Assembly: GCF_011319465.1 (NCBI RefSeq)
Contig: NZ_RCMB01000004.1
Location: 1 to 64,000, forward strand
DNA: 64,000 nucleotides
Source of the DNA: Candidatus Nitrosotalea sp. TS
Lineage (GTDB): Archaea; Thermoproteota; Nitrososphaeria; Nitrososphaerales; Nitrosopumilaceae
Direction: 5' to 3'
The notes under the pieces are model-generated. The model was not told where the DNA came from and searched no databases. It saw nothing but the letters and a program-made list of their open reading frames with translations. The position numbers and the translations under genes were made by a program. This document shows, piece after piece, positions 1,647-46,857 of this stretch. Every line of letters starts with the position of its first letter. Position 1 is the first letter of the stretch.

Positions 1647-1784
1647 ATGATTCTCACTAATCAGTTGATAATAGAAGAAAAGCTAAATGACGGCTGCAGG
1701 TGTGACTGCCACTATGGAGGGGCCATTAGTTGTCCTTCTTGTAAAGAAAATCACGGAAAGCACGAGTGCCCTCACTGCAAGTAG
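1647..1784 (+). CDS. 45-aa zinc-ribbon miniprotein
   Basis: ATG at 1647, TAG at 1782-1784. After a 16-residue start the protein is cysteine and histidine rich. It has CRCDCH, then CPSC with HGKHEC, then CPHCK at the very end, enough for one or two zinc sites. The final CPHCK resembles the end of a rubredoxin-type zinc ribbon. It abuts the convergent gene ending at 1786. A similar small Cys-rich protein lies at 4281-4466. Function unknown; a nucleic-acid or protein interaction role is guesswork. Confidence 0.6.
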   Translation: MILTNQLIIEEKLNDGCRCDCHYGGAISCPSCKENHGKHECPHCK

Positions 1785-1785
1785 T

Positions 1786-2073
1786 TTATTTCTTCTTGGC
1801 ACTTTCTTTTGCTGCAAGCGCCTTGAGATTTGCCAGATCTGTCCTCAGTTTCTCTATCTCAACTAGAGTGTGAAGGCTTGCAATCTCTGCCTTGAGGTTT
1901 TCAATCTCTGTATCTTTGTTCTTCAATGTGCTTTGCAGATCATCCAAGTCAGCACTAAGTTCTGCTTTGGCGTGGCTTAGTTCACTAGAACTTATCTGAA
2001 CAGTGTGTTGTCGACCAGAGTTAGTTGCTAGCTTTTTTTTTTCATCATGCTCATGGCCTCCCAAGTTATGCAT
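1786..2073 (-). CDS. small coiled-coil protein
   Basis: 95 residues. A short His/Asp/Lys-rich start is followed by a long Leu-heptad coiled coil (about residues 30-85, with repeated DLxxL, IExLKxEI and LRTDLANLK patterns) and a lysine tail ending AKKK. No enzyme motif. Its ATG lies inside the end of the upstream small membrane-protein ORF (stop at 2066-2068), so the two are probably translated together. The pair may be a membrane anchor plus a cytosolic scaffold, or one protein split by a frame break. Confidence 0.65.
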   Translation of the reverse strand: MHNLGGHEHDEKKKLATNSGRQHTVQISSSELSHAKAELSADLDDLQSTLKNKDTEIENLKAEIASLHTLVEIEKLRTDLANLKALAAKESAKKK

Positions 2074-2191
2074 GATACTGGGTGCTTTTCAGAGCTAGCC
2101 AGCATACAGCTACTATGAACCATGAGATTGCTGTAAAAACTATGAATATTTGTTTCCCATTATCTGGCACTATAAAATAACATATGGTCAT
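2066..2191 (-). CDS. 41-aa single-pass membrane miniprotein
   Basis: ATG at 2191 (minus), TAA at 2068-2066. About ten polar residues are followed by one hydrophobic helix (roughly residues 14-34, with IFIVFTAISWFIVAV) and a short polar tail. The stop overlaps the start of the coiled-coil gene by 8 nt, which suggests translational coupling. Too short for family assignment. The long uninterrupted hydrophobic stretch and the overlap are the evidence that it is real. Confidence 0.45.
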   Translation of the reverse strand: MTICYFIVPDNGKQIFIVFTAISWFIVAVCWLALKSTQYHA

Positions 2192-2330
2192 AGGCCACTG
2201 CAAGGCAGGATGTTACAATAGTGGGTATGTCATACTGTCGTCCCATAAATTTACTTTTCAGGTGGCAGAATATAATAGTAATGGAAATTTCCAAACTAGA
2301 AAATGTGTTTATAAAAATAGAGGGATTTTA

Positions 2331-2573
2331 CTAGTCACTGCTCTCAGCAGCAGACTTAGAATTGACCTCTAATTCTGGAACCTCAGACTGCAAAATCTTA
2401 ATTTTCTGTAAAAGTTCGTTTCTAAGATCTCTTGCAACCCGTCTTACGGTTGGTCTTGGAACTCCAAGCTCTTCTACAACTTTTGTGTAGATATCTTGTT
2501 TATCTGTAAGACCTTTGTCAAGCAGAGTGTTAATTGCTTGCTTGATATTTGTGCTTTGGGTAGTACGATTCAC
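2331..2573 (-). CDS. small helix-turn-helix protein
   Basis: 80 residues. The central part (about 15-55) reads as a tri-helical HTH: a DKQDIYTKVVEEL helix, then the GVPRPTVRRVARDLR recognition helix. An acidic, Ser-rich tail follows. Such proteins are common and short in thaumarchaea. It is a likely DNA-binding regulator with unknown target. The gene stands alone, with an AT-rich 281-bp gap on its upstream side that should hold its promoter and that of the cyclophilin gene. Confidence 0.75.
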   Translation of the reverse strand: MNRTTQSTNIKQAINTLLDKGLTDKQDIYTKVVEELGVPRPTVRRVARDLRNELLQKIKILQSEVPELEVNSKSAAESSD

Positions 2574-2854
2574 GTTTTTTATTTTTCAGATCTTCTATAT
2601 AAGACTGTTACTATGTTTTTGGTAATAACATGACACATGCAAAAATTGAGTTTTGCGTTTTGACCAAGTCCTGCGATCTTGTGTTTGCATCATAATTTTT
2701 TAAATTTTCCAGAGTTTTTGCCAAATAATTTTATTCAAGCTAAAATGTTTTTATCATACTTGATTTATTACAATAGAACAATCAAAGGAAACTCTTACTG
2801 AAAAAGTAAAATTGTGTAGAAAGGTTATTATGATAAAATGGTGGCTTGTGAAAG

Positions 2855-3334
2855 GTGGCAAGAGCAACTCTAGAGACCAGTTTTGGAAACATTATCTTTG
2901 AATTATCTCCCAATATTGCCCCTGAAACGGTACGAAACTTTACCAAGCTTGCAAAAAGCAATTTTTATGATGGAACTCTATTCCACAGAGTAATACCCGG
3001 GTTTATGATCCAGGGAGGCGACCCCAATACCAAGACTCCAAACAAGAGCAAATGGGGCATGGGAGGGCCTGGCTATACGATAAAGGCGGAATTTAATTCA
3101 AGATCACACCTGAGAGGCATAGTCTCAATGGCAAGAGCAAACGACCCAAACAGCGCAGGTTCACAGTTCTTCATAGTTACTACAGATAGTACATTTCTTG
3201 ACAAGCAGTATACAGTATTTGCAGAGGTAGTGAGTGGAATGGACGTTGCTGACAAGATAGTAAACCTTCCAAGAGACAAAAATGATTGCCCTAATCAAGA
3301 AGCCAAAATACTACGCGTAACCGTATCAGAGTAG
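2855..3334 (+). CDS. cyclophilin-type peptidyl-prolyl isomerase
   Basis: 159 residues, full length for a single-domain prokaryotic cyclophilin. It shows the FHRVIPGFMIQGGDP signature (residues about 48-62), GGPGYTIKAEF, the core SAGSQFFI and the D-K-x-Y-T-V-F-A-E-V segment. It catalyses cis-trans isomerisation at proline during folding, probably in the cytoplasm because there is no signal peptide. The GTG at 2855 is the first usable start after an in-frame TGA. The secreted-protein gene follows after one base, suggesting cotranscription. Confidence 0.95.
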   Translation: MARATLETSFGNIIFELSPNIAPETVRNFTKLAKSNFYDGTLFHRVIPGFMIQGGDPNTKTPNKSKWGMGGPGYTIKAEFNSRSHLRGIVSMARANDPNSAGSQFFIVTTDSTFLDKQYTVFAEVVSGMDVADKIVNLPRDKNDCPNQEAKILRVTVSE

Positions 3335-3335
3335 A

Positions 3336-4250
3336 ATGACCATGTTAAAACTCCTCCTTGCCTGCGTGATAGCCGTAACAATTTTCTCAACTACGGCAGC
3401 ATTTGCTCAGGTGTCTATGGGAGGACCCCCAAATGAAGACATCAAGGTAAGGCTTGATGAAAACGGAGCAGCTCATGTAGTTCATGCTGTACAGGGAAAT
3501 GCCACAAGTCCAATTCATGTCGAGATGATTGCCGGAAATCTTGCCAACCTTACAGTTACTGATCAATTCAACAATTCAGTACAATATTCCACGATTAGCC
3601 AAAGTCCAATGTCTATCCTATTGTTGCCTACTCAAAGAAATGTAACGCTGATCAAATACGACATACCTAACGCACTAACTGACAATAACGGATTGTGGAG
3701 CTGGAATTACTATGCACCAAGCGATGCAGTCTTTACTGATTTTTATTTTCCTAAAGGAGTAGATATGATCTGGTCACAGGACAGACCAGTGTATCTTGGT
3801 GACAAGGCAGGCCTCCGACAGATTGGAAATGGCATGCATCTTGCATACACTATCAACGAGCCTGAAACTATACAAACTGTACAGTGGCAGAACCAGACAT
3901 TTAATGTTGGAGTAAGAAGTCTTGCAAACATAGGACCTCCTGTTTTTGATCAATCATCAAAGGCATATGCATTCAACGTTGACAAGGCAAATTCCTATGT
4001 CACAGTGATAATGCCCAAGGCACTTTTGTGGGGACCATACCAAGCAACAATAAACACGAATCAAACTCTTACTAATCAATTCAATGACAATGGCACTCAT
4101 GTTTGGATAGGAATGAAACCTTCCCATAATGGAACATTACAGATCACAGGAACAACTGCAATCCCAGAGTTCCCAATGTTTGTGCCATTAGCCATTGCAA
4201 TCTCGGCAGTAGTTGCTCTAAGATTTTCAAATAGATTGAATTTCAACTAG
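3336..4250 (+). CDS. secreted, C-terminally anchored protein with PEF-type tail
   Basis: 304 residues. There is a signal peptide (residues 1-25, ending AAFAQ), a long beta-rich ectodomain with many N-glycosylation-type N-x-S/T sites, then IPEFPMF followed by a hydrophobic helix and a short basic end (FSNRLNFN). The tail has the layout of PEF/PEFG-CTERM sorting signals known from archaea. Cleavage by an archaeosortase is plausible, though the exact PEFG motif is not present. It starts one base after the cyclophilin stop. Role unknown; it sits at the outer cell surface. Confidence 0.8.
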   Translation: MTMLKLLLACVIAVTIFSTTAAFAQVSMGGPPNEDIKVRLDENGAAHVVHAVQGNATSPIHVEMIAGNLANLTVTDQFNNSVQYSTISQSPMSILLLPTQRNVTLIKYDIPNALTDNNGLWSWNYYAPSDAVFTDFYFPKGVDMIWSQDRPVYLGDKAGLRQIGNGMHLAYTINEPETIQTVQWQNQTFNVGVRSLANIGPPVFDQSSKAYAFNVDKANSYVTVIMPKALLWGPYQATINTNQTLTNQFNDNGTHVWIGMKPSHNGTLQITGTTAIPEFPMFVPLAIAISAVVALRFSNRLNFN

Positions 4251-4280
4251 ATTATTAATAGTAAAAATTCATCGGGTTCC

Positions 4281-4466
4281 ATGCAATGCGGATGCCATTG
4301 TATAAAATGCGGAAGCATGGAGTTGCAGTCCAATCGTGTTGGAGACATTGAAAATGACGGCTATTTTGACATGCACCACACGTGCCTAAAGTGCAACGCT
4401 CACTTTGATCATCTGGAAGGAGACGTGTTTGATTCCTGCAGCAAGTGCGGCTATAAGGCTAGTTAA
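4281..4466 (+). CDS. 61-aa double zinc-ribbon protein
   Basis: It carries C-G-C-H-C-I-K-C near the start, then CLKC in the middle and CSKC near the end, so up to two zinc ribbons in 61 residues. Its 3' end overlaps the convergent gene at 4459 by 8 nt. This is typical of small thaumarchaeal zinc-binding proteins of unknown function; nothing indicates an enzyme. Confidence 0.7.
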   Translation: MQCGCHCIKCGSMELQSNRVGDIENDGYFDMHHTCLKCNAHFDHLEGDVFDSCSKCGYKAS

Positions 4467-4932
4467 GCTCTATCATCTTGGCAACAGAGTAGTAATTGCG
4501 CTTTTCCCGCAGGTCTTTTTGGAGTTCATAGCCAAAGGCCATGTCTGTTAGTGCCTTGGATACATCAAGGGGAACTGCTGCCCATCCGTACTCATGCAAC
4601 TGGGCAACAACCTCAGAGGTTGTTCGTGGCTGGTCAAAGAACCCATCTTCTGCAAGTGTTCTAATCTTGCTCTTTATTTGCGCCTTGTCAAGGAATGTTG
4701 GCTTGACAAATTCTGGCTCGTGAATCTCTGCATCATTGAGCATGTTTAGGACTTCGGCGCCTTTGGCAGGCTGGCCGTACGAATAATCATGCTGAAGTGT
4801 ACCCGGACTGTAATCTTTGACGTGTACTGAGAGGTTGTTTATCACCTGGTCCACGCTCTGATTGTCTATATAGAAATCCTTGGACTCGATCTCAATCTCA
4901 TTTTGACCATACCTGATTCTAATTTTTGCCAT
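4459..4932 (-). CDS. conserved protein with C-terminal winged-helix-like domain
   Basis: 157 residues from the ATG at 4932. The longer upstream reading has a different character and no good start. The N-terminal about 45 residues form a charged beta-type segment (KIRIRYGQNEIEIE). Residues about 95-155 look like a winged helix: a helix at IKSKIRTLAED, the TTSEVVAQLHEYG helix, then a wing ending RNYYSVA. Likely a DNA-binding or adaptor protein specific to Thaumarchaeota. No partner is evident from the neighbours. Confidence 0.7.
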   Translation of the reverse strand: MAKIRIRYGQNEIEIESKDFYIDNQSVDQVINNLSVHVKDYSPGTLQHDYSYGQPAKGAEVLNMLNDAEIHEPEFVKPTFLDKAQIKSKIRTLAEDGFFDQPRTTSEVVAQLHEYGWAAVPLDVSKALTDMAFGYELQKDLREKRNYYSVAKMIELN

Positions 4933-20530: not shown

Positions 20531-21214
20531 ATGAATGTCAAAATTGATTTGCCACCGATTACAACTAACTTTGTGGAACCAATTGACCTAACACTTGAGA
20601 TTTCAAACAAGCTTCCAAGTTTTCCAGGCTCTCCACGCCCCCAATTCATTTCATGGGCAGACAAAAAATCCGACGGGTACAATCTTGAGCTTATTTTCCT
20701 CAGCTCGCACACTGGCACACACCTTGATGCGCCGTATCATTTCATAGAAAAAGGGATCAAGATAGACAAGATTCCCCTCAACAGACTGGTGACAAGTGCA
20801 ATTTTATGCAACATACGAAAGGGCCCCAACATGCCAATCACACGGGCTGACATTGTCACCTTTGAAGCAAGAAAAGGCAAGATACCACCCAATTGCGCCA
20901 TAATTTTTGGGACTGGCTGGTCAAGGAATACAGCAAGAAAAGACTATTTCACCAAAAACCCGGGGCTTTCACCAAGTGCAGCCAAATACCTGTCAGAAAA
21001 GAGGGTCAGCCTGATAGGCATCGATTCTCCCAGCATAGATTTGGGCAAGGATTCAAAATTTTCTGCCCATCATCTTCTACTGAAGAGTGGAATTTTGATT
21101 TTGGAGAATCTTTGCAATCTTGACAAGATTCAAAAAACCAGCTTCATGCTGATAGTGCTGCCCCTCAAGCTAAAGGATGCCACAGGATCTCCTGTTAGGG
21201 CAGTAGCAATCTAG
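20531..21214 (+). CDS. cyclase family protein (kynurenine formamidase-like metal hydrolase)
   Basis: 227 residues from ATG 20531. The signature SSHTGTHLDAPYHF (about residues 58-71) supplies the His and Asp metal ligands. GIDSPSIDLG and the later AHHLLLKSGILILENL complete the fold. The family hydrolyses N-formyl or cyclic amide bonds; substrate not known. Its stop overlaps the convergent radical-SAM gene by 4 nt. Confidence 0.88.
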   Translation: MNVKIDLPPITTNFVEPIDLTLEISNKLPSFPGSPRPQFISWADKKSDGYNLELIFLSSHTGTHLDAPYHFIEKGIKIDKIPLNRLVTSAILCNIRKGPNMPITRADIVTFEARKGKIPPNCAIIFGTGWSRNTARKDYFTKNPGLSPSAAKYLSEKRVSLIGIDSPSIDLGKDSKFSAHHLLLKSGILILENLCNLDKIQKTSFMLIVLPLKLKDATGSPVRAVAI

Positions 21215-23354
21215 AATACAAACTGAAATCTATTTTGCTTGTAATTTTCTGCCAGCTTTCCTTCTATCGGGATATGGTTGCCGCAGAATTTGCAGTTATT
21301 GTTGTCATCAAGATGCCAGCCTTGGATATCAAATCCATATCTTTTTACCACAATTTTTTTGCATCCAGAACAGTATGTATGCTCAAGAGGATGCCCCGGA
21401 ACATTTCCCAGATATGCATAGTTGAGGCCCTCTTTTTTTGCTATTTCATGGTGTTTTTCAAGCGTCTTAATTGGCGTTGACTCAAATTCCATCATCTTAT
21501 AGTCTGGATGAAATCTTAGAAAGTGAATTGGCATGTCAGGTCCAAATTCATTGTAGACAAATTTGCAAAGCTTGGCAGCATGCTCCAAGTCATCACCCAC
21601 TTGAGGAACCACGAGATCAGTAATCTCCACATGAATTCTGGTCTTGTCCCTTATTTCCTTGAGAGTGTCAAAGATTGGTTGCGGGTCTGGAACGCCAATG
21701 TATTTTCGTGTAAATTGCGGTTCTGCGTTTCCCTTAAAGTCTACAGTGATGCAGTCAAGGAACTCATCCATCATCTTTACAGTTTCCGGAGTGTCGTAGC
21801 CGTTTGATACAAAAATATTGAATAGCCCATTTTTTCTTGCAATGACTCCACAGTCTCTTGCAAACTCGATGAATATTGACGGCTGATTGTATGTGTAAGC
21901 AATTCCCTGAGAGCCCGAGCTTGTGGCCATGTCTACCACCTCTTGCGGTGTCATGTCAGCTCCCTCGATTTTTCTTCGCTGACTGATATCATAATTCTGG
22001 CAATATTTGCAATTGTGCAACAATATGCCATCTCCCACATAATTATGGTTTGGAATACATTCAAAACTAAATACTTGGGTGGTTTTGCCTGTAGGTTTTA
22101 CTTGTTTAACTTCCACCCAAGTTCTTTTGTTTTTTCTTACTAAAGGCGAAACATACTCTATAATGAGAGCTTCAACCTCATCAGCATGACTGTAGATTTG
22201 TCTGCCAGAAATCCGTATGGTTTTCCACCCATTTGCAGCCAAGGCCTTGTCTCTAATTTTATCAGTTTGTTGGATTTTTTCAGAATTGTAGTGCCACCAT
22301 CCATCAATCTCAATATCGATTTTAGCTTCGATTATGGCAGCATCTGCAATGTAGAAACTTTTTGAGCCTTCAGTATGTGTCTCTGTTTTAATTCGATACT
22401 CTTTTTCATATTTTATGCTCATTCGATCAAGAAGATCATAAAGTAATTTTTGAGATTCTGATGGGTGTTTATGAAGCCATTTTCGTAATCTTTCAGCATT
22501 TTTGTGCCAACCATGAGAGGGATCTTCAATGAACCTAGCTTTGCTTGTTTCATGTGATCTTTTTGCTACAAGGGGATCATACATTGGATTATTAGTTTTC
22601 ATTCTAGCGCTATACTTTACTCGCATTTCTTTTGGCATTTCATATTCTTTCAAGTAACAGACTCCTCGATGGCGGTTCCATTCATCAAAACCTACAATTA
22701 CTTGATCACAATTCTTGCATGAGAATTTGGATTCTTGAATTGAATTCAGTCTTTTTTGCTTCCAAACTTTGGTATTTTGATACCACACCTTGACGATTTG
22801 ATCTCCTCTTTCTAATGTTTCAGCTGTTTTCCATCCACGGGTTGTAAATACTGGATGCTCTCGTGTGAGATACAACTTTCCATGTCCTCTACTTCCATAC
22901 CTAACTTCCAAAAGTTCCGCAAATCTTGAACCGGTATGTGTTACAACATTAGGAATTATTTCAAAATTACCCTCAACATTATATGACCACACCTTATTTC
23001 CACTGGTTATTTTTTCAATAGATTTCTTGGAACCATCAGCCATCAAGATTTTAGTTCCTTTTGGCTGACAAAGCCAATTGCAGCCAGTAGTGGCAATGGA
23101 AAATATGCTGGACCCAGGCCTGTAGTGTGTTACGGGTTTTTTCTCGATTGGGTCAACATGGCCTGTTATCACCTTGCCATATGCCAAAAGATCAAGCCTG
23201 CCGTTGTTGTTTGCCCTTATACCACAAAGACCTATCTGGCTTTTCCCGATCTCGCAATATCTAGCGCAGGCTGTGCATCTTACCTTATCGTCAGGTAGTT
23301 TCTGATAAAGAACTGCTTCTTTTGCCGTTACTGTATCAAGCCTGATTTAATCAT
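21211..23354 (-). CDS. AmmeMemoRadiSam-system radical SAM enzyme interrupted by an intein
   Basis: The extein reads RCTACARYCEIGKSQIGLCG (N-terminal Cys motif typical of this family), LLAYGKV, SIATTGCNWL, then after the intein CKYCQNYDISQRRK and on to a C-terminal zinc-binding CSGC…CKFCGNH. Joined, the radical-SAM motif is C-x3-C-x2-C, with the intein just before the second Cys. Near the start one base seems missing in the AAA run at about 23346-23349, which would give MIKIRLDTVTAKEAVLYQ from ATG 23354. Enzymes of this family accompany AMMECR1 and Memo proteins; their reaction is unknown. The extein is about 360 aa. Confidence 0.9.
22012..23070 (-). mobile_element. 353-aa intein with zinc finger, NUMOD3-like segment and Vsr/DUF559-like nuclease
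   Basis: Splice block A starts with Cys 1 (CQPKGTKILMADGSKKSIEK). Block B has LTREHPVFTTRGW with the conserved T-x-x-H. Block F/G ends NHNYVGDGILLHN followed by extein Cys+1. Between them come CKNCDQVIVGFDEWNRHRGVC (C2HC-like finger) and NPMYDPLVAKRSHETSKA, similar to NUMOD3 DNA-binding repeats. Next is a domain with SESQKLLYDLLD, DIEIDGWWHY and RDKALAANGWKTIRIS, the layout of Vsr/EDxHD or DUF559 nucleases. Every expected splicing residue (Cys1, His, His-Asn, Cys+1) is present, so it should be splice-competent. Confidence 0.92.
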
Positions 23355-44483: not shown

Positions 44484-45964
44484 ATATCAAAATAAAGATA
44501 AAACTCGTGAGGATGGGGTCTTATTGAGATCTCGTGATCATCTGCCCTTTCTACCTCGATTATCTTGTCAATAGTATCGCCTGAAAATATTGGACTGAGG
44601 AATTTTCTGTCGTTTTCAAGTTCATCAAGTGCTTCTCCTAGCGATGCAGGCAGGTCCTTGATTCCCTTTGCATCGCGTTGAGCTTTTGTCATCTTGTAAA
44701 TGTCTTCATTGACCGGATCGCCTGGGTCCATCTTCTTTTTAATTCCATCTAGTCCTGCAGCAAGCACGGCTGCAAATACAAGATATGGATTTGAGGATGG
44801 ATCAGGTGCCCTAAACTCTAACCTCTTGATCTTTTCATACTTGTCTCCCTTAAAGTGAGCCGGAATTCTAATTATTGCAGATCTGTTGCTTGCACTCCAT
44901 GCAATATACACAGGTGCCTCATATCCTGGAACCAACCTGTGGTAGGAGTTTGTTGTTGGTGCAACAATTGCAGACAATGCCCTTGCATGATTCATGATTC
45001 CACCGCAGTAGTATCTTGCAGTTTGGCTTATCTCCTCTTTGTCGTCTTTGTCATAGAACATGTTCTTGCCATTCTTCCACAGACTCACATTGGTGTGCAT
45101 TCCGGAACCCGCATCCATGGAAATTGGTTTTGGCATCATGGTTGCGACCTTGTCATACTTTGTGGCAATGTTTCTTACAACGTACTTGTAGGTCTGTGCA
45201 CCATCTGCAGCGTTTGTCATGGTGTCATATCTTATGTCGATCTCGCACTGTCCCGCAGTTGCTACCTCGTGGTGATGATTGTCACATAAAATTCCAAAAT
45301 ACTCGTTCAAGCATTCTACACAATCGTTTCTGTATTCTGTCAGGGTGTCAGCCGGGGTGCTAGGATAGTATCCCTTCTTTAGTGCCATCGGGTATCCCTT
45401 TCCTTCCTGATTCCACGGGGCTTCCTTTGACTCTATTGAATATGACTGGCCCTTGTATGGCGTTAATACATCCCATTGGATCTTGTCAAAAACGAAGAAC
45501 TCTACCTCTGGACCCCAATAGCTTGTATCAAAACCCTGCGTGTTGAGATATTTTTCTGCCTTTTGCGTTATGCCTCTTGGATCAGCTTCCAGTCTACCTT
45601 TTCCCCAACCCCAATATACATCACAAATCAATCTTGCAGTCTTGGAATTTGTCATCCAAGGAATTACCGCATATGTGTTGGGATCTGGCTTTAGTATCAT
45701 ATCAGAATCTTGGACGGAGGCAAATCCCACAATTGAGGATCCATCTAGCTTTGGCAGACCGTCTTGCATCTGTTGAGGGGTAAACAAGTTGGCTGAAATT
45801 GTTGTATGATGAAATCTTCCCCTAAGGCCCGTAAATTGTAAATCAATGAATTTTATCTGATCATGTTTAATCTTTGCAAAAACTTCATCAGCCGAATAAG
45901 AAACTGATACTGGCTCTCCACCAATCACTTTATATGGCAATTTTGCACCTTGATCATAACACAA
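44480..45964 (-). CDS. glnA: glutamine synthetase
   Basis: About 494 residues. Beta-grasp N-terminal domain with FIDLQFTGLRGRFHHTT. The catalytic domain follows with YWGPEVEFFVFD, DNHHHEVATAGQCEIDIRYDTM, MDAGSGMHTNVSLWKNGKN, SYHRLVPGYEAPVYIAWSASNRSAIIRIP, and the arginine-flap and RLEFRAPDPSSNPYL regions. It assimilates ammonia into glutamine at the cost of ATP. The start is unclear: TTG 45964 is the first usable codon and no ATG is in frame near it. The adenylylation tyrosine motif of the bacterial type is absent. Confidence 0.95.
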   Translation of the reverse strand: MCYDQGAKLPYKVIGGEPVSVSYSADEVFAKIKHDQIKFIDLQFTGLRGRFHHTTISANLFTPQQMQDGLPKLDGSSIVGFASVQDSDMILKPDPNTYAVIPWMTNSKTARLICDVYWGWGKGRLEADPRGITQKAEKYLNTQGFDTSYWGPEVEFFVFDKIQWDVLTPYKGQSYSIESKEAPWNQEGKGYPMALKKGYYPSTPADTLTEYRNDCVECLNEYFGILCDNHHHEVATAGQCEIDIRYDTMTNAADGAQTYKYVVRNIATKYDKVATMMPKPISMDAGSGMHTNVSLWKNGKNMFYDKDDKEEISQTARYYCGGIMNHARALSAIVAPTTNSYHRLVPGYEAPVYIAWSASNRSAIIRIPAHFKGDKYEKIKRLEFRAPDPSSNPYLVFAAVLAAGLDGIKKKMDPGDPVNEDIYKMTKAQRDAKGIKDLPASLGEALDELENDRKFLSPIFSGDTIDKIIEVERADDHEISIRPHPHEFYLYFDI

Positions 45965-45999
45965 AGGAGTCTATGATTTAAGCATTGTTGGGTGTGTAA

Positions 46000-46557
46000 A
46001 TGTCAGAAATAAAAAAAATTGACGCAAATTCATTGTATGCCTTGCTTGTCAGGGAAGTAGAAAATGATTCAGTACAAGAGCTAGATTCTAAACTGTATAA
46101 CAATATTGCAGAATTTCTTGGAAATTTAAAAAACCAGGACTATGACGGAGCTGAATCGAAGATCAAAGACTCGCTTGTAAAAATGATAACTGAAATGACA
46201 TCACTTCTTTTAAAAATTAGAATTGAGAAAGCAACGGGTCTTGAAGAGATTGATTATTCAAATCTTCTTGATGAAGAGAGATTTATTTTAGATTCTGAAG
46301 ATGAGCTAAGGCAGAGAAAGGAAACCATTCTCTCTGCAACACTAAATGGAAGATTAAAGCTTCTTGAGACCGTGGCAAACAATCACAGGTCTAGAACTAT
46401 TGTTGTGAGGTTTCTCAAGCCAATAGACCAGATTGTGGGAACAGACCTTCAGACATATGGTCCATTTGAAGCCGAAGATGTTGCAACCTTGCCGTTTGAG
46501 AATGCGCGTGCCCTGATTGCCAAAAAGGTAGCAGTAAAGATAAGTTGGGAAGACTAG
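46000..46557 (+). CDS. GINS complex subunit (Gins15/51 type)
   Basis: 185 residues. The helical A domain at the N-terminus (residues 1-125) is followed by a small beta B domain (about 135-180) with IVVRFLKPIDQIVGTDLQTYGPF, EDVATLPFENARALI and a basic end. This A-then-B order is that of archaeal Gins15 (Sld5/Psf1-like). GINS links MCM to the polymerase in the replicative helicase. It lies apart from the PolD/orc1 cluster by 8 kb. Confidence 0.9.
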   Translation: MSEIKKIDANSLYALLVREVENDSVQELDSKLYNNIAEFLGNLKNQDYDGAESKIKDSLVKMITEMTSLLLKIRIEKATGLEEIDYSNLLDEERFILDSEDELRQRKETILSATLNGRLKLLETVANNHRSRTIVVRFLKPIDQIVGTDLQTYGPFEAEDVATLPFENARALIAKKVAVKISWED

Positions 46558-46584
46558 AAATTAGACAACATAGTGTGACACGAT

Positions 46585-46857
46585 ATGCCTAATGAGACCG
46601 ATCTTTACGTTTACTTTGAAATTATACTGTATCCTGTTGTAGGCATGCTTGTCATAGAAATGATTAGCAGAAAAGCCAAGATACCAAACTGGATAAAATT
46701 ACTGGCTCAGGCACTGATGTGTGTTGGATTTGGTATAGCCTATCTTGTCATGCAAATGTCTAACTGGCTTACTGCAGGCGTACTATTGGCTTTGGCAATT
46801 GCCTTGTTTTATCAAGCAAAACTATCAAAATTTCATCCGCAAAAAGCTCTCTACTGA
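46585..46857 (+). CDS. 90-aa three-helix membrane protein
   Basis: Hydrophobic helices at about 10-25, 38-58 and 60-78, with a basic patch RKAKIPNWIK between the first two. It starts 27 nt after the GINS gene on the same strand. Its end overlaps the convergent AN1-like zinc protein by 33 nt. No family recognised. Confidence 0.65.
   Translation: MPNETDLYVYFEIILYPVVGMLVIEMISRKAKIPNWIKLLAQALMCVGFGIAYLVMQMSNWLTAGVLLALAIALFYQAKLSKFHPQKALY

Follow-up and report, generated by a model that had tools for sequence, protein, structure and literature searches.

An intein with a predicted in-frame EDxHD endonuclease, probably mobile, inside the radical-SAM cysteine motif of an archaeal AmmeMemoRadiSam gene

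The window analysed in this work, i.e. the whole stretch of 64,000 nucleotides, contains on its minus strand an open frame of 711 codons from stop to stop (21211–23346), which encodes an AmmeMemoRadiSam radical-SAM enzyme interrupted by an intein. The frame is free of stop codons throughout the inserted stretch. A profile search of the precursor bore out the identity of the host enzyme proposed in the initial annotation, with TIGR04337 being matched at an E-value of 9.8e-77 and 258.2 bits against a curated cut-off of 220; the match is split into two parts at 21265–22014 and 23065–23307. The N-extein as delimited by this match (23071–23307, minus strand) ends in ATTGCNWL, which places the first cluster-binding Cys at residue −4 (codon 23080–23082). 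The C-extein (21211–22011, minus strand) begins with CKYCQNYDISQ, wherein Cys+1 (codon 22009–22011) is the second cluster Cys and Cys+4 is the third.

The TTG at 23187 listed as the start of this open reading frame was rejected as the true N-terminus, because the frame holds a conserved N-terminal Cys region further upstream, extending to at least 23307. At 23329–23346 (minus strand) most of the genus relatives that were read possess an ATG, GTG or TTG start codon, and the window copy has GTA. The equivalent codons in four intein-free copies (L063, L060, L062 and L076) are GTA, GTA, ACA and ATA, respectively. None of these five copies has an in-frame ATG, GTG or TTG upstream, and the ambiguity of the start is unrelated to the intein. 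Genes for Memo and AMMECR1 are also found in the genome of the window, on other contigs and hence not adjacent to the radical-SAM gene. The same genome encodes archaeal AmoA and thus probably comes from an (aerobic) ammonia oxidiser.

The intein itself, delimited by its sequence landmarks and by profile and fold matches, consists of 353 residues from Cys1 to Asn353 (22012–23070, minus strand); it runs from CQPKGTKILMADG through ILLHN and is followed by Cys+1. The junctions read GCNWL/CQPKGT and ILLHN/CKYCQN, and removal of the insert gives GCNWLCKYCQN, a normal CX3CX2C motif. The insert hence lies, as had been annotated, between the first and second Cys of the cluster-binding motif, CNWL being joined to CKYC at the spliced junction. 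The following splicing blocks were located, all on the minus strand: (i) block A, CQPKGTKILMADG, at 23032–23070 with the Cys1 codon at 23068–23070, placed from the aligned copies; (ii) block B, T69-x-x-H72 (TREH), at 22855–22866; and (iii) blocks F and G, QVFSFECIPNHNYVGDGILLHN, at 22012–22077, which match TIGR01443 above its cut-off. Residues T69, H72, H352 and N353 are invariant among 15 aligned copies. The Pfam family Intein_splicing was matched at 2.1e-12 in the precursor and at 1.6e-13 by the insert alone, values that chance would not give, and by all 13 of the intein members scanned, while TIGR01445, which describes the intein N-terminus, stayed under its cut-off in the window copy (18.4 versus 24.5). 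A model of the full intein gave a pLDDT of 77 and a pTM of 0.44, the latter leaving the relative positions of its domains unsure. The predicted fold matched 47 PDB chains at E ≤ 0.001, and the best 49 matches listed are inteins, intein-like domains or hedgehog Hint domains. The landmarks on which the initial annotation had based its call (Cys1, T-x-x-H, His-Asn and Cys+1) are all present. These data confirm the stretch as an intein of class-1 type with a Hint fold, for which splicing is predicted.

One rival reading is that the stretch is an ordinary domain which does not splice, or else an artefact of assembly, and one other copy (L097/L117) does have an internal stop. Against such a reading stand 23 distinct copies from many genomes that possess Cys1, T-x-x-H, His-Asn and Cys+1, and 54 homologues that are contiguous and free of the intein: 51 are open frames that continue across the site, to which three further copies (L028, L032 and L035) were added. 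The closest comparison is between the empty locus L071 and the intein-bearing L007, whose N-exteins differ at 2 of 267 bases and whose C-exteins differ at 21 of 798, in addition to the exact insert. With such homologues at hand, the objection raised in the initial annotation, that the stretch might be an ordinary domain of the family, is excluded, and we consider either version of this explanation extremely improbable.

The intein protein was searched against 400 genomes of the class without requiring Cys1, and 18 of these gave matches at 1e-5. In 17 of the 18 the intein resides in the AmmeMemoRadiSam gene, at the same site as far as the ends are present, and the carriers span seven families and nine genera; the remaining match (L023) is a helicase intein. 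Three carriers are incomplete: the intein of G029 is divided between two contigs, G186 has only the tail at a contig end, and G376 is without the first 39 residues. Screening 84,980 genomes, each representing one species, yielded 19 loci, every one of them in a MAG whose label is Thaumarchaeota, Nitrososphaeraceae, Nitrososphaerales, Nitrosopumilaceae, Bathyarchaeota or simply archaeon. A search of 398 genomes of the phylum gave 28 with matches, including ten full-length examples of this AmmeMemoRadiSam intein, among them two families outside the class; nine loci read from the 18 other matches are either different inteins, for example in RtcB-like or helicase-like genes, or short DUF559-like proteins that stand alone. 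Pooling these searches resulted in 23 distinct intein sequences from Thaumarchaeota- and Bathyarchaeota-type genomes, all at the identical site in the AmmeMemoRadiSam gene. The pattern used to select them required the site and the end residues including Cys1; T-x-x-H, which was no part of that pattern, is present in all 23, and when the N-side flank (positions −6 to −1) was left free, the site was again the same in every copy. A viral vehicle for the intein was also sought: viral contigs gave one weak relative, eight records of Vibrio phages were matched (27% over 53% of the query), and the plasmid search gave one partial Hint match.

Two other intein-like regions were noted in the genome of the window (G000). 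The first, on contig C1 at 99963–101198 (L001/L003), lies in a 1019-aa frame that is helicase-like by eye, and the second, on contig C11 at 45223–46670 (L002/L005), lies in an RtcB-like gene with its halves in separate frames.

The splicing landmarks of the initial annotation stood, though it had overlooked a second domain, which was found here by PF04480 and by fold match. Residues from about 116 to 310 of the intein do not belong to the splicing domain and contain three elements. The first is a putative zinc finger, C118-x2-C-x12-H-x3-C138 (22657–22719, minus strand), of the Cys-Cys-His-Cys type, which occurs in 19 of the 20 copies tabulated and is absent from a mini-intein described below. 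The second is a segment of NNPM type (TNNPMYDP..., 22525–22593, minus strand), identified from the alignments as a probable DNA-binding module; NNPM also occurs in a nested endonuclease ORF of a phage. The third is an EDxHD/DUF559 endonuclease catalytic domain at residues about 200–310 (22141–22473, minus strand), with the catalytic motif E254-I-D256-G-W-W-H260 (22291–22311) recognised from the alignments. In the window copy DUF559 (PF04480) scored above its cut-off, and all 13 intein copies scanned matched this family; E254, D256, G257 and H260 are invariant in 19 aligned endonuclease domains, an alignment that omitted L019 and L021, both of which are without an intact motif. A separate model of residues 100–312 (pLDDT 83.8, pTM 0.58) gave I-Bth0305I as its best PDB fold match, with E-values of 4.0e-4 and 8.0e-4 and target-normalised TM scores of 0.82–0.83, and a profile search of PDB sequences led to I-Bth0305I too, weakly (E 0.033). 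The cargo of the intein is therefore predicted to be an in-frame EDxHD (DUF559/Vsr-like) homing endonuclease with the PD-(D/E)xK-like fold of I-Bth0305I. A LAGLIDADG endonuclease was also considered and rejected, no such family being among the 18 Pfam families matched by 13 members at E ≤ 0.1. In ten pairs of intact copies from the genus, the dN/dS of the endonuclease was 0.14–0.26 versus 0.11–0.18 for the splicing parts, values that point to purifying selection on the endonuclease.

The distribution of the intein was resolved most finely in the genus, in which 33 of 37 genomes have a TIGR04337 match. Six of these carry the whole intein, one carries the tail only, 24 are uninterrupted across the site and two (G157 and G321) could not be judged; the intein is hence present in seven of the 31 resolvable genomes, with close sisters that do not have it. 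At the locus of G157 (L080), the left contig end and the right contig start are an exact repeat of 78 bases with nine N between them (1495–1503), and the repeat ends at a TGT (Cys) codon, exactly at the intein site; an occupied and an empty allele would have this codon in common. This arrangement suggests that occupied and empty alleles coexist in one population, since an assembler forking between the two would leave such a trace. Some members of the genus also possess a second AmmeMemoRadiSam paralogue type (SIGTTGCN..C), which is intein-free in the four loci read (L057, L067, L068 and L073); G152 is an example of a genome with a second, intein-free paralogue. The comparison that covered these paralogues took in 20 of 21 intein rows and 51 empties, L094, with no C-extein past the motif, being left out.

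A tree of the host extein DNA was built from the six carriers, 20 empty genus members with loci and three outgroup rows, leaving out four rows of the paralogue type and the gapped L080. The carriers are scattered among the empties, such that six changes are needed (four of them forced by the starred branches alone), and a single carrier clade was rejected with a p-AU of 1.5e-33. Since cdc48 is the neighbour in six of six genus carriers, the locus is the same in each. Divergence and dN/dS were calculated for the six genus copies with both exteins (15 pairs), and the ten pairs that do not involve the decayed L019 are summarised here. Among these five intact copies, the divergence of the intein at fourfold sites was 0.20–0.31 whatever the hosts. 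In eight of the ten pairs the host exteins differ by 0.46–0.56 versus 0.20–0.31 for the intein (permutation counts of at most 20 of 5000), and the control gene cdc48, readable in five of the eight pairs, differs by 0.51–0.68; L009, whose cdc48 was not recognised by the pattern, did not enter this comparison. The remaining two pairs, both with closely related hosts, do not show this clear difference: L006/L008 (host 0.34, intein 0.28) and L007/L009 (host 0.20, intein 0.26). An intein less diverged than its own host gene would be the signature of recent homing. The GC3 of the intein (0.23–0.28) lies below that of most of the five hosts' exteins (0.25–0.45); low GC3 was rejected as the cause of the low intein divergence, as by our estimate it changes the saturation level only slightly and cdc48 behaves like the host. 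Forty codons on each side of the site were examined for a co-conversion tract and showed no reduced divergence, so no long tract is seen there.

These results bear directly on the alternative of an ancestral intein, passed on by vertical descent and lost many times, whose endonuclease is a fossil. The deepest split lends this alternative some support, as it is alike in hosts and inteins: the hosts of L018 and L021 are divergent (44% to that of the window), and their inteins are the ones that diverge most (43% and 39%). Decayed copies (L019 and L021) exist as well. Within the genus, however, vertical descent fails to account for an intein whose fourfold divergence is about half that of the host in eight of ten pairs, and likewise relative to cdc48 where readable; nor does it sit well with the purifying selection on the endonuclease or with the exact insert that separates the close pair L007/L071. 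We therefore regard purely vertical inheritance as very unlikely.

The decayed copies provide the later stages of the series. A loss of 50 aa has shortened L019, in which the motif has become IEVEEWRH, and L021 is a mini-intein of 193 aa without the endonuclease. When L019 was compared with the other five copies, divergence at fourfold sites was 0.51–0.65 for the intein and 0.63–0.69 for the host, a much smaller gap than among the intact copies. Its endonuclease dN/dS (0.10–0.16, five pairs) is not raised, the decay being invisible in this ratio. Lateral homing of active copies combined with vertical descent of the dead L019 would give this pattern, and the shortened and endonuclease-free copies would complete the homing cycle. 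An in-frame TAA stop is found in the zinc-finger region of the endonuclease of L097/L117, which means either that this host gene is broken or that the assembly is in error. Homing predicts that an intein spreads laterally from species to species at one locus and that its endonuclease then decays, and this population pattern is shown here. Since a single site offers closely related alleles with and without the intein, copies in an intact or decayed state and a mini-intein, the homing cycle becomes directly testable in an archaeal group (Thaumarchaeota) for which the literature found on inteins with a homing endonuclease is sparse.

Taken together, we consider it very probable that the locus harbours a mobile, cis-splicing intein of class-1 type with an in-frame EDxHD homing endonuclease, which occupies a fixed site before the second radical-SAM Cys and persists selfishly. 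As judged from its residues and fold, Cys1 would attack and the chain would be transferred to Cys+1, itself a cluster ligand of the host; Asn353 would then cyclise and the exteins would be joined as CNWLCKYC, and the enzyme would bind its cluster only thereafter. The endonuclease would cleave empty alleles at this strongly conserved motif, whereupon the intein would be copied into them by repair. Established radical-SAM chemistry makes it a sound inference that the cluster cannot assemble before splicing. The locus is a natural case in which a metal-cluster ligand doubles as the splicing acceptor, so that cluster assembly would have to wait for splicing.

The initial annotation went further and suggested that splicing might be gated by redox state or metals. 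In a fuller form of this reading, a disulfide or metal site involving Cys−4, Cys1 or Cys+1 would hold the oxygen-sensitive enzyme as a precursor until conditions are reducing. Cys−4, Cys1, Cys+1 and Cys+4 are indeed brought together by construction, AmoA in the window's genome makes its owner probably an aerobic ammonia oxidiser, and a precedent exists in the MoaA intein of Pyrococcus abyssi, in which, according to reviews, a disulfide between Cys−3 and Cys1 blocks splicing (PMC3922620; PMC10663303). However, position −3 is Asn or Ser in all 23 distinct copies, with the motif Cys at −4, and a redox trap of the P. abyssi type, where Cys−3 pairs with Cys1 (PMC3922620), is ruled out by the residue at −3; a bond between Cys−4 and Cys1 is conceivable. 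The extra Cys residues are, moreover, simply the catalytic ligands of the host. A conserved regulatory role is not suggested by an intein that occurs only here and there (7 of the 31 genus genomes that could be resolved, close sisters being without it) and behaves as a mobile element. The gating proposal finds no support in this patchy distribution, and we consider it very unlikely. The role of the intein would rather be selfish persistence at an indispensable site than demonstrated regulation.

Known systems resemble the present intein in parts. NCBIfam NF038136 (Rv2578c family radical SAM, intein-containing) likewise has an intein in the CX3CX2C motif. It represents another host family, and mapping on the profile model alone places its intein before the third Cys, whereas that of the window is before the second. 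An intein-free homologue (L111) aligns without gaps to positions 26–80 of the profile with its motif Cys residues at 69, 73 and 76, and Cys1 of the window intein aligns to position 76. In the intein part of the window precursor, the NF038136 model gave a match at 3.2e-8, with 32.9 bits against a cut-off of 700, and membership was rejected by insertion site and score. Since by this mapping the two inteins precede different cysteines, inteins have entered the motif on at least two occasions and at different codons. MoaA, too, belongs to the radical-SAM enzymes. The P. abyssi MoaA intein is likewise archaeal and resides in an oxygen-sensitive enzyme; the enzyme is a different one, and the Cys−3 partner of its intein would fit a site at the third Cys. 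In the two reviews, a disulfide between an N-extein Cys (Cys−3 in PMC3922620) and Cys1 is reported to control splicing (PMC3922620; PMC10663303).

In the incomplete literature covered, no intein in a radical-SAM enzyme was found beyond the MoaA and NF038136 cases, and none was described in AmmeMemoRadiSam or at the second motif Cys, an absence that weighs little since most subscription papers fell outside this scope. The initial annotation knew of no described intein at this site, and within that scope the same was found for AmmeMemoRadiSam and the second Cys; inteins in radical-SAM Cys motifs are known in kind. What appears new here is the insertion site, the host and the in-frame EDxHD endonuclease, the last of which was not found described in the same incomplete literature.

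With respect to the endonuclease, a DUF559 gene has been assigned to the EDxHD family (PMC9403480). I-Bth0305I and the EDxHD homing endonucleases (DUF559/Vsr-like) have the ExDGxxH motif and fold in common with the window intein; the I-Bth0305I entry 3r3p is labelled as a mobile intron protein, whereas in the window the domain forms an in-frame part of an archaeal intein that is contiguous. In the "fractured genes" of Dassa et al. 2009, Vsr-like endonucleases are said to be associated with split inteins, a free-standing endonuclease gene reportedly lying between the intein halves, mainly in phage metagenomes. Unlike that arrangement of split intein and free-standing endonuclease, the window has a contiguous intein and an in-frame domain. 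Two viral genes were observed in which a DUF559/EDxHD ORF lies inside an intein gene in a different frame. In L106, an IMG/VR contig gene that is terminase-like by eye (Intein_splicing 1.9e-7, below cut-off), the ORF at 2588–3499 (plus strand; PF04480 2e-11) lies within the intein gene at 1855–4812 (plus strand). In L129, a Vibrio phage helicase (Intein_splicing 1.2e-9, above cut-off) with the NNPM motif in common with the window intein, the ORF is at 2360–2989 (plus strand; PF04480 3.2e-13) within the intein gene at 1684–4272 (plus strand).

It is our tentative proposal, possible but rather less than probable, that no lineage of contiguous inteins with an in-frame EDxHD endonuclease had been recognised before this one, that it is still homing in a genus of probable ammonia oxidisers at the codon of a cluster ligand, and that radical-SAM Cys motifs are a recurrent target of inteins, hit at least twice at neighbouring codons. 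The same tentative proposal would place the window intein at the end of a capture series that leads from an endonuclease beside a split intein, through one out of frame as in L106 and L129, to one in frame. The in-frame EDxHD domain, together with the out-of-frame ones in viral inteins, bears on how endonucleases enter inteins.
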